Shown here: positions 20,718 to 23,545 of the stretch, piece after piece
Position numbering within the stretch: the first letter of the stretch is position 1
Layout: each line of letters starts with the position of its first letter
DNA from: Bacteriovoracaceae bacterium
GTDB taxonomy: Bacteria > Bdellovibrionota > Bacteriovoracia > Bacteriovoracales > Bacteriovoracaceae
Assembly: GCA_019752535.1 (NCBI GenBank)
Contig: JAIEMA010000019.1
Coordinates: forward strand, 124,001 to 188,000
Direction: 5' to 3'
Length of the DNA stretch: 64,000 nucleotides
The notes under the pieces: model-generated
The model's database searches: none
What the model was told of the DNA's origin: nothing
What the model saw: the letters and a program-made list of their open reading frames with translations, nothing else
Position numbers and translations under genes: made by a program

Positions 20718-21782
20718 TCAAACAAGAAAGACTTTCGCTTGGGGTATACCATTAAAACTATGATTCCAAGAGAGAGCATAACCGGCGACATGGCCCCATA
20801 AAATGACATCTCCCACACCAGCACTAAAACCATTTTTACTCAGGTGCAGGACATCATCCTCCCAGCAGGTGCTTGAGCCCCACCAGACCTCTCCGTTTAG
20901 CTCGACACGTTCGCCCTCGGCCAGTGGAATCAATGTCCACTGATGTGAGCGCACCCACCTGAGATGAGCTCCAGGAGATAACTCCCCTTCCACAAACCAT
21001 CTCTCCCCTCTCTTCTCTACACTGAGCACACGGCTAAAGGCATAACCCGCTTCTTGAGTCACGGCCCTTCCTGGCTCCATCACAAAAATAAGATCTGAAG
21101 GCATCATGGCAGCAAGTTCAGAGATGAGAGGGTCCGACATTTTAGCCCATCCGCCGCCGAGATTAATTTTCTTCAAATGGGGAAACTCTTCTCTTAACTT
21201 TAGCAACTCAGATAAAAGAGTTTTGAATGTTTCATCTGTACTCTTCTCTCCTCCATGATGGCAGTGGAGAGCATAGACTTTGTCTCTATCGGCTTTTGAA
21301 TAATTTGAAATATTTTTTCTATCAAAGCCAAAGCGCGAAGCCACAAAAGCCGGATCATCTTTTTTTAATAAACTCGATGAAGAGATTCTTAGGGCCACAT
21401 GAACATTCAATTTTTTTGCTTCTTGCCAATCCCTTTCACTTCCAACGTTCCAAATAATTTTTCGCTTTTCACATATATCTTGAATCGATTGAGCATCTAT
21501 AACCTGACCATTGGTCAGCCAGATCTCTGCCTCCGGTTTAAGATAGGGCATTACTAATTTGGCTTCCGTTAGGTTAGAGACATCGACGGCATCAAGACGT
21601 GAGGCAAAAACTTGAAGACCTTCAGACCAAGGAAAAGCCTTCACTGCGAAACTTAACTCGTGCTTTCCAAGTTTATTTTTTGTTTTTTCAACCCAATCAA
21701 GAAGAGCTTTCTTGCGAAAAATCAACCCACAGCCAGAATCTGTTTGAAGGATAAAAGCGAGTACATCTGCTGGTTTATTCAT
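20718..21782 (-). CDS. PLP-dependent fold-III decarboxylase (carboxynorspermidine/DAP decarboxylase-like)
   Basis: A 354-residue alanine-racemase-fold decarboxylase. The PLP lysine is in LSFAVKAFPW near residue 48. The substrate and phosphate sites are HCHHGGE, INLGGGW and VMEPGRAV. The active-site cysteine is in SSTCWEDDVL near residue 305. The C-terminal SFNGIP ending resembles carboxynorspermidine decarboxylase (NspC) more than LysA, which has a tyrosine at this place. This would put it in polyamine synthesis, but the fit is partial and the lysine-type reaction is not excluded. The start at 21782 overlaps the upstream stop by 8 bases, so translation is coupled to the secreted protein gene. 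Confidence 0.8.
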   Translation of the reverse strand: MNKPADVLAFILQTDSGCGLIFRKKALLDWVEKTKNKLGKHELSFAVKAFPWSEGLQVFASRLDAVDVSNLTEAKLVMPYLKPEAEIWLTNGQVIDAQSIQDICEKRKIIWNVGSERDWQEAKKLNVHVALRISSSSLLKKDDPAFVASRFGFDRKNISNYSKADRDKVYALHCHHGGEKSTDETFKTLLSELLKLREEFPHLKKINLGGGWAKMSDPLISELAAMMPSDLIFVMEPGRAVTQEAGYAFSRVLSVEKRGERWFVEGELSPGAHLRWVRSHQWTLIPLAEGERVELNGEVWWGSSTCWEDDVLHLSKNGFSAGVGDVILWGHVAGYALSWNHSFNGIPQAKVFLV

Positions 21783-23355
21783 CATTCTTTTCAACCGTTT
21801 TAAACTTGATGAAATTATCATAGCGAGCCGCTTTTACCCATTCAGAAAATGGCGGCTTCTTATCCATTCTCATGGATTGATCAATTAGACCTAACACCAG
21901 AGTGGCCCCATGAGAAGATCCATCGGCTAGTGTTGATATTGAGTGAACATAGTCACGACGATATTTTGAAGTGCTTGGCTTAGCAAAATATTCTTCTGGA
22001 TAATATAAATTTGAAGCACATGAGAATAGAGCCACGAATTGATAGGCCGGTACATTTTTTTCGATAACCATATTTTCTCGTAAGGCCCTTAAACTGCTTC
22101 CTAAATAGCTTCCGAATCCTGCATGGCCTGTGTAAATAACCACATCATCATTGGATAAGGCATTCGTCATCGCGACTTTAAAGTCTTGATGGCCCGGGTG
22201 GTCTGGCTGATTAGGCGAGATGAACAATTTGAGTTCATAACTCTTAGAGCTTAATTTTAAAATGCCTCGAATGATTATCTCAATTTTATTGTCATTGATA
22301 TTAATGACATATTTCTTAAAGATACTATTTCTTTTCACATTCCAAAGTAGCATCATCCCAGCGGTAAGAGCGGGATCATACTCTTTAAGCGAGGCTTGCA
22401 ATTGCCCCATTGAGAGCTGATCATTTTTTGAAATAATCAGATCTCTCATCACACCATTGATCTTATTTTTATCGTTTTCACTGTAAGGCTTAAAATCATG
22501 ATATTGAAAAGCACTGTAAATAAAACTTAATTTGAGAGGGCGCTTTAACTCTTTGAGTGCAGTAAAGTCGGGCTCAGCATGATCGCTTGGTAGCAAATCC
22601 ATTTTGGGCTTTGGGTCTTCCCACTGAACGCCTTCAGAAAGAATATTGGTGCAATTAAATGGCTTTTTATTGGCGTCGATTCCAATCTCTTGAGGAGACC
22701 AAAAAAACCAATAGCTCCACGGATCTATTAATCCCTTGCTGCCAATTTGATTGATCGTTGCGCAGGGATTTGTGACTGCTCTTTCTTCCAGCTTATTTTT
22801 TAGATCCAGTCTCTTATGAATGGGCACAAGAAAATACGCAAGATAGGGCTCTTTAGGGATGGGCCAATTGATCTCTTTGTAAGTCTCGTCTTTGTTTTGA
22901 CACAGATCTAATTTTATTTTGGCTTTATAAGAAACTCGCAGCGCACTTTCACCCTGAGCAATCTTTTTGCGCTCAGCTATTTTATTCAAATAGGTTTTAA
23001 CAGAATCAGGATAGTGACGCGGAATCGTTGCATCGATCTCTAAGGAATATGGGAGTTTGACTTCTTCCGTCTTAGTCACACTAAAATCGATATCTTTCTT
23101 TTCAAATCCTCCCCAGCGAATCATGTCTTTATTGGCCTGGAGGTTTGGAAGCTCAGGATAGACATAGAGATTTTGAAATATAATTGAAGAAGCGATGAGT
23201 TCGTTTTGAGTCGCTGGCTCAACGGCGGATTTCACTAAAAGAACTTCTGAATTAAAAGAAATTGAATAGCTTTTCGGGAAGCCAGAGCAGCTTAAATTTG
23301 TCCCAGAATAAGCAAAGGGTGAGATCAGTAATAAAAAGAGAGTTATGATAAACAT
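21775..23355 (-). CDS. Large secreted protein with clan-CD cysteine peptidase-like motifs
   Basis: A 526-residue protein with a signal peptide (MFIITLFLLLISPFAYS). The C-terminal third contains a hydrophobic strand ending in histidine-glycine-like DDVVIYTGHAGFGS near residue 422, and about 40 residues later a second strand ending YQFVALFSCASN. A His after one hydrophobic block and Cys after the next ([AS]-C) is the signature arrangement of clan CD (caspase, gingipain, clostripain, legumain). The N-terminal 300 residues are unrecognised and have several cysteines. Proteolytic activity is inference. It is followed by the PLP decarboxylase in an overlapping operon, a pairing I cannot explain. 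Confidence 0.65.
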   Translation of the reverse strand: MFIITLFLLLISPFAYSGTNLSCSGFPKSYSISFNSEVLLVKSAVEPATQNELIASSIIFQNLYVYPELPNLQANKDMIRWGGFEKKDIDFSVTKTEEVKLPYSLEIDATIPRHYPDSVKTYLNKIAERKKIAQGESALRVSYKAKIKLDLCQNKDETYKEINWPIPKEPYLAYFLVPIHKRLDLKNKLEERAVTNPCATINQIGSKGLIDPWSYWFFWSPQEIGIDANKKPFNCTNILSEGVQWEDPKPKMDLLPSDHAEPDFTALKELKRPLKLSFIYSAFQYHDFKPYSENDKNKINGVMRDLIISKNDQLSMGQLQASLKEYDPALTAGMMLLWNVKRNSIFKKYVININDNKIEIIIRGILKLSSKSYELKLFISPNQPDHPGHQDFKVAMTNALSNDDVVIYTGHAGFGSYLGSSLRALRENMVIEKNVPAYQFVALFSCASNLYYPEEYFAKPSTSKYRRDYVHSISTLADGSSHGATLVLGLIDQSMRMDKKPPFSEWVKAARYDNFIKFKTVEKNDE

Positions 23356-23389
23356 GACATTTATTATAACTCTCTTCTCAATTTTTAGT

Positions 23390-23545
23390 TCAGTATAATG
23401 CCACTAAAGCATGACTTGAGGAGATCTCAAGACCCATACTCCAAGAAGAAACCAAGGCTCCCTCTTCATTCATCTTCAATTGCTGATCAATTGTGACTGT
23501 CGTTACAAAGAGAGCCACGGCAAGAGCAAACTTTATCATTTTCAT
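23390..23545 (-). CDS. Small secreted or membrane peptide (51 residues)
   Basis: An open frame of 51 codons behind AAGGAG at good spacing, beginning MKMIKFALAVALFVTTVTID. The hydrophobic N-terminus is a signal peptide or single span; the remainder (LVSSWSMGLEISSSHAL) is short. It lies between the large secreted protein gene and the divergent DUF481 gene and explains most of that 346-base gap. The strong ribosome site supports real translation. Function unknown. Confidence 0.6.
   Translation of the reverse strand: MKMIKFALAVALFVTTVTIDQQLKMNEEGALVSSWSMGLEISSSHALVALY

Follow-up and report, generated by a model that had tools for sequence, protein, structure and literature searches.

Among the peptidase families of clan CD, separase (family C50) is a eukaryotic chromosome-segregation enzyme and the gingipain-type C25 proteins are exported bacterial cysteine proteases; some clan CD enzymes ligate, as do legumain and PorU of family C25. 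In PMC4357240, the clan is defined by a dyad of His and Cys in that order, with a six-stranded sheet of which strands 3 and 4 bear the dyad at their ends, and the clostripain PmC11 has extra strands after strand 2. A second source lists eight families in the clan and places a Gly before the catalytic His (PMC12445089), and a third gives the Asp two residues before the Cys as the likely S1 residue of family C11 (PMC4850288).

Here, a gene is compared with these families that lies in a 64,000-nucleotide stretch of DNA, the window, from the genome of a Bacteriovoracaceae bacterium. The gene is likely to encode a cysteine endopeptidase that is exported and represents a new clan CD family, with an activity and a substrate that we infer.

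The gene, its dyad and its family

The gene is an open reading frame on the minus strand (window positions 21775–23355), with an ATG start and no internal stop, that encodes a protein of 526 aa of the exported type. It belongs to a long-branch subfamily of an unannotated family of putative clan CD cysteine peptidases. The N-terminus is the hydrophobic run MFIITLFLLLISPFAYS, and residues 1–17 (23305–23355, minus strand) form a putative signal sequence, the cleavage site of which was set by eye. An N-terminal domain follows (residues ~18–255; 22591–23304, minus strand) that carries the conserved Cys198 and Cys235 and the subfamily pair Cys23/Cys152. The C-terminal caspase-like domain (residues 255–526; 21778–22593, minus strand), which was also modelled alone, contains both putative catalytic residues on the same strand: the general base His411 (22123–22125) within the motif TGHAG (residues 409–413; 22117–22131) and, 35 residues farther on, the nucleophile Cys446 (22018–22020) within FSCAS (residues 444–448; 22012–22026). 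A hydrophobic strand precedes each motif, DVVIY in the case of TGHAG and QFVALF in that of FSCAS.

An earlier, sequence-only reading had described TGHAG and FSCAS as following hydrophobic strands in a His-then-Cys order, and this is confirmed by the 526-aa frame and by the motif strands of the AlphaFold2 full-length model (E405–409 and E438–444). The same reading had the protein exported, in agreement with the hydrophobic N-terminal run from which export is predicted, and its N-terminal half unrecognised, as it remains, since nothing consistent was matched in Pfam or in PDB sequences. The length of 500 residues that it gave has to be corrected to 526, and the strand, which it did not name, is the minus strand.

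Of 59 related genomes searched with the protein, 14 yielded matches, the window genome included, some of them only at E near 1e-3, and an HMM built from 16 aligned members (alignment A1) matched in 127 of 368 searched genomes of the phylum. These HMM matches far outnumber the loci used, and the family counts given below rest on loci L001–L183, which provide 137 non-identical family ORFs (L014 is devoid of a family ORF, and L170, L180 and L182 contribute none). A motif-seeded scan of named genomes found 75 loci, mostly titled as Bdellovibrio/Bacteriovorax-type bacteria or Deltaproteobacteria; 24 of the 75, counted from titles, are Elusimicrobia. By sequence comparison, the family is a large one, unannotated and unnamed, and mainly resident in the phylum of the predatory Bdellovibrio-type bacteria. 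It is also frequent in Elusimicrobia MAGs (L073 and others), a distribution shared with Bdellovibrionota that is unusual. On contig C18, the window genome has another member of the family, which is shorter, and the orthologue in the related genome G001 is divergent, being ~30% identical to the window protein. No relatives were found in phage and plasmid records with the shorter paralogue as the sole query. In a tree of 91 rows, built by a quick method and with several weak forks, the window protein is placed within a long-branch subfamily of six rows.

Two of the 137 ORFs are fragments short of the catalytic region. The remaining 135 all keep both His411 and Cys446, and hence the His-then-Cys order that defines the clan. 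Conservation of the two residues in homologues had been set beforehand as a refuting test, and both are invariant in each part of the sample: in 85/85 sequences from whole-genome searches, which used no motif seed (86 rows with one fragment), and in 50/50 from the motif-seeded scan (51 rows with one fragment), where the seed pattern includes the His motif and so biases the count for His. Besides the dyad, Gln439 is fully conserved (1.00), followed by Gly410 (0.99) and Gly415 (0.98), and a Gly directly precedes the putative catalytic His in 133 of 135 sequences, including the window protein. Elsewhere in the motifs the letters change. The G001 orthologue has lost GHAG (THSVFG) and retained His and Cys, and the position two residues before the Cys is occupied by Asn in 59 members, Gln in 30, Asp in 26 and other residues in 20 (n = 135), with Phe in the window protein. 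The motifs are therefore more than chance, as every sequence that reaches the two sites keeps both residues while the adjoining letters vary. Two departures from described families are apparent: the usual His-Gly of clan CD is replaced by His-Ser/Ala-Gly, and where C11 enzymes carry an Asp two residues before the Cys, 89 of the 135 members have Asn or Gln.

Cysteines are found at aligned positions 198, 235 and 446 in 130, 130 and 135 of the 135 sequences, respectively. Exactly three cysteines lie after residue 22 in 108 of 132 full-length members, and an odd number in 116. The window protein has five, comprising the candidate pairs Cys198/Cys235 and Cys23/Cys152, the latter of which occurs in its subfamily, plus Cys446. 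By a hydrophobicity heuristic rather than by SignalP, 119 of 125 full-length members have a hydrophobic run at the N-terminus, compared with 17 of 660 interior control windows. Paired cysteines and hydrophobic N-termini together suggest, at the level of sequence, that family members reside where conditions are oxidising and keep a single thiol free and reactive.

Neighbouring protease genes

The survey of downstream neighbours began with the 133 distinct members that are 300 aa or longer and covered the 131 whose loci extend 500 nt past the end of the gene. In 56 of the 131 cases, an ORF of 150 aa or more begins within 100 nt on the same strand, and 54 of these neighbours were scanned with Pfam (A6), L075 and L177 being omitted by hand. 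The commonest family was PF03415, the C11 clostripains (9), followed by RDD and exo/endonuclease-phosphatase (5 each). The C11 gene directly downstream of these nine members, out of the 131 surveyed, overlaps the family gene by 1–80 nt in eight cases. Genes for trypsin-like proteases (PF00089), which are exported, lie 33–44 nt downstream in two of the 54 (L066:6446-7597 and L111:6348-7454). Neighbour clusters 0, 2 and 5 were set aside as apparent overlapping or shadow ORFs.

C11 genes were detected in 82 of 191 genomes. They lie directly downstream of a family gene and on the same strand in G048, G061, G063, G294, G304, G305, G306 and G367, which span five taxonomic families (f1, f3, f4, f7 and f10); the eight genomes were picked for apparent adjacency, and five of them represent approximately the same loci as are among the nine. 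The C11-neighbour label requires four changes on the family tree, the starred branches of which still permit a single origin. The window gene has no C11 neighbour; its genome carries C11 once, on contig C59. Several C11 matches are split in two within one open frame, as if they bore an insertion (examples are G059:C66 and G086:C251; paired genes, L116:6205-7722 and L082:2285-3841).

These neighbours bear on the chemistry of the enzyme. With the fold of clan CD and a reactive pair of Cys and His, the protein might instead be a transpeptidase, ligase or sortase that joins proteins to the envelope, and an exported location together with such a pair suits either chemistry, between which clan membership cannot separate. 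The C11 and trypsin-like protease genes that adjoin members of the family nevertheless suggest proteolysis, no partner with a sorting signal was noticed, and a joining enzyme is improbable in our estimate.

Relation to recognised families and predicted fold

The window protein matches no Pfam or NCBIfam model at E ≤ 1 and no PDB sequence at E ≤ 10, and the defence-system models of PADLOC do not match any of four family members. When the window protein and other members were scanned singly, none reached the curated cut-off of any clan CD profile. A Pfam scan of 82 C-terminal domains, in which 25 families were listed, gave Peptidase_C25 in 12 (best E 0.0046) and Peptidase_C50 in 6 (best E 6.6e-4), both below the cut-off, while the other families were matched by two members at most; with 54 N-terminal halves, no family was matched by more than one member. 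The window protein is without a match at E ≤ 1 to C25 (PF01364), C14 (PF00656), C11 (PF03415) or CHAT (PF12770), and its domain scores 11.7 bits (E 0.14) against C50 (PF03568), where the cut-off is 27.8. C14 was likewise absent from the search of the window genome, and the CHAT profile was found in 0 of 59 genomes of the phylum and in 1 of 14 controls. The C50 profile gave no signal in any genome, and its genome search therefore carries no weight. Of 97 genomes, 35 contain true C25 genes, and the two places at which the window genome matches C25 (E ≤ 0.001) both lie elsewhere than the gene described here. By the profile tests made, the protein falls outside C14, C25, C50, C11 and CHAT.

The C25 searches also revealed a gingipain-type domain within a 2475-aa open frame of the window genome, outside the window (G000:C1:85550-86629, L186), and giant C25 open frames of up to 3539 aa in several relatives.

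Comparison by hhalign of the alignment of C-terminal domains (A3) with nine C14 sequences of the phylum (A5) gave a probability of 60.4 and an E-value of 8.4e-5 over a span of 50 columns only, in which GH is paired with GH and SC with SC. A null set of 57 unrelated neighbour families reached a probability of 1.3 at most, and the values of the family against local C25 (0.5) and local C11 (0.14) are at noise level. Such low values are compatible with kinship, since recognised clan CD families also score weakly among themselves (C11–C14, 17.5; C14–C25, 0.8; C11–C25, 0.2). Profile searches of the PDB with A1, A3 and A7 returned nothing useful; a match of A3 to a heme-binding protein (E 0.0013) covers a stretch that stops at the GH motif, short of the Cys, and was rejected as chance.

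AlphaFold2 models were obtained for the full-length protein (16 sequences; pLDDT 77.3, pTM 0.80) and for the C-terminal domain alone (82 sequences, A3; pLDDT 88.3, pTM 0.89). In the domain model, a first strand (20–27) and three helices are followed by strands 90–99, 104–112 and 118–126 and a helix (135–148). The second half continues with strand 151–155, His157, helix 158–174, strand 184–191 and Cys192, and the domain ends with strand 211–219, two helices and strand 261–269. His157 and Cys192 (domain numbering) are thus located at the ends of successive strands. The predicted order of elements and the position of the dyad fit the sheet described for clan CD; Foldseek nevertheless prefers GTPases.

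The top solved match of the domain model in VIA is the SAVED-CHAT structure 8tl0 (Z 9.0, 172 aligned, 3.8 Å), followed by caspase-4 (Z 7.1, 164 aligned, 3.9 Å), a metacaspase (Z 6.7, 176 aligned, 4.3 Å), caspase-7 (Z 6.7, 180 aligned, 4.2 Å) and caspase-6 (Z 6.5, 179 aligned, 4.2 Å). With the full-length model, the top five rows are SAVED-CHAT (8tl0; Z 8.8, 174 aligned, 3.8 Å), separase (9hn0; Z 7.8, 167 aligned, 3.6 Å), caspase-4 (Z 7.3, 169 aligned, 4.0 Å), metacaspase and caspase-1. Neither C25 nor C13 appears among the VIA rows listed, an absence from which nothing follows.

These matches leave room for a Rossmann-like or G-domain-like protein akin to MglA or Arf, in which the His and Cys would serve metal binding or structure. 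Foldseek puts MglA-type small GTPases first in the PDB with both models (domain model, E 2.4e-4, TM-scores 0.33 and 0.41), and in VIA, Arf1 (Z 6.5) and MglA (Z 6.4) are level with the caspases (6.5–7.1), so that SAVED-CHAT alone stands clear of the small GTPases. However, no P-loop GKS/T follows the first strand in the family consensus, and an exported protein, as this one seems to be, would reach a place where GTP is not expected. The GTPase rows listed mostly end near model residue 246, whereas the caspase rows reach 270, and one conserved His and one conserved Cys beside paired cysteines better fit an enzyme. An identity as an MglA-type GTPase was set aside on the absence of the P-loop and the exported appearance, and the wider G-domain explanation is very unlikely. 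Just as unlikely is a pseudoenzyme without catalysis of its own that binds or chaperones secreted proteases, C11 among them, an idea to which the head-to-tail C11 pairing in part of the family lends itself, but pseudoenzymes tend to lose their catalytic residues, which none of the 135 sequences has done, and most members, the window gene included, have no C11 neighbour.

With the C14 caspases and metacaspases, the family shares the alignment of the GH and xC motifs, the order of the dyad, its location at strand ends and the VIA scores of caspases 4, 6 and 7 and the metacaspase (Z 6.5–7.1). It differs from C14 in being exported, in its candidate disulphide-bonded N-terminal domain, in the absence of a Pfam C14 match, and in the strands that the model adds between strand 2 and helix 2. 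Such added strands, which PmC11 also has after its strand 2, are instead a likeness to C11, and a VIA row for a clostripain is found with 6mzo (Z 5.9, 164 aligned, 3.9 Å). SAVED-CHAT heads the VIA rows with both models, yet the CHAT and PADLOC profiles are unmatched, and export argues against an intracellular defence role. The likeness to separase consists of the weak Pfam matches at the His motif and of the 9hn0 row; those matches are below the Pfam cut-off, and separase is not exported. The likeness to C25 lies in the weak Pfam matches of 12 of the 82 domains, with profile comparison at noise.

The caspase-like fold proposed by the sequence-only reading holds for the order of elements and for the top VIA rows, which are clan CD structures, and is weakened by the GTPases that lie within one Z of the caspases. 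The models therefore point to clan CD without settling the matter. That reading's suggestion of a new peptidase family is consistent with the lack of any above-threshold match to Pfam, NCBIfam or PADLOC models. Kinship of the family with clan CD is probable, and a new family-level branch of the clan is the best reading of the sequence comparisons and predicted models.

Proposed mode of action and the window locus

As a clan CD peptidase, the protein would be exported by Sec into the periplasm or beyond, as its N-terminus and paired cysteines imply. The N-terminal domain, putatively disulphide-bonded, may be a pro-domain or a substrate-recognition module, and the C-terminal caspase-like domain would cleave a peptide bond, with Cys446 attacking the scissile carbonyl and His411 acting as general base. 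These roles are assigned from the invariance of the two residues, their position in the model and the fold. In some lineages, the enzyme may be made together with a C11 clostripain-family protease, for which a partner or mutual activator would be the simplest role. Prey or self envelope proteins are a guess at the substrates, and a part in predation can only be presumed.

Predatory bacteria must digest or remodel the envelope of another cell without harming their own, and the proteases that serve this purpose are poorly known. An exported and, judging from the sequences, probably catalytic caspase-fold family that is unnamed in Pfam and NCBIfam and present in about one-third of the searched genomes of the phylum offers itself directly to experiment. 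Clan CD, with eight families listed, would gain one more if the family is active, and the clostripain pairing of some lineages would then provide a bacterial two-protease system. The family is undescribed in the profile libraries searched and in the titles and abstract openings that the literature searches listed, outside subscription papers and MEROPS.

The gene preceding that of the peptidase is a small ORF of 51 aa of the exported type (23390–23545, minus strand), with AAGGAG upstream of its ATG and a hydrophobic start; 34 nt separate its end from the start of the peptidase gene. Homologues were found in two of the other 58 genomes, G001 (55% identity) and G003 (51%), and each closely precedes the peptidase orthologue. 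The 51-aa ORF is missing from two further genomes of the genus, G002 and G004, where the family member is of the shorter type only. The linkage, present in three genomes, suggests that in the window lineage the small protein may inhibit or activate the enzyme or be its substrate. One may speculate further that the additional clan CD family, mainly of Bdellovibrionota and Elusimicrobiota, works outside the cytoplasm and in several lineages forms a two-protease relay together with C11, and that in the window genus, where C11 is absent from the locus, the enzyme is under the trans control of the 51-aa exported peptide encoded next to it; as a whole, this scheme is rather doubtful.

At the start of the peptidase gene, a hairpin is predicted (23336–23376, minus strand), the 3' arm of which holds the start codon of the peptidase and is followed by a U run. 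Its folding energy is -24.6 kcal/mol (MFE of a 100-nt stretch; z -3.96). A terminator, an attenuator or a start-site lock are possible functions; visual inspection of G001 and G003 showed no evident hairpin at the corresponding position.

Downstream of the peptidase gene is a gene with a PLP-dependent decarboxylase fold (20718–21821, minus strand; PF02784), the best NCBIfam models of which, nspC and lysA, are below the cut-off. It overlaps the peptidase gene by 8–11 nt if it starts at the methionines of MMNKPAD, and is followed farther downstream by a short exported-type ORF and then by dapF. Upstream, in divergent orientation, lies a DUF481 gene whose synteny is shared by G001 and G003.
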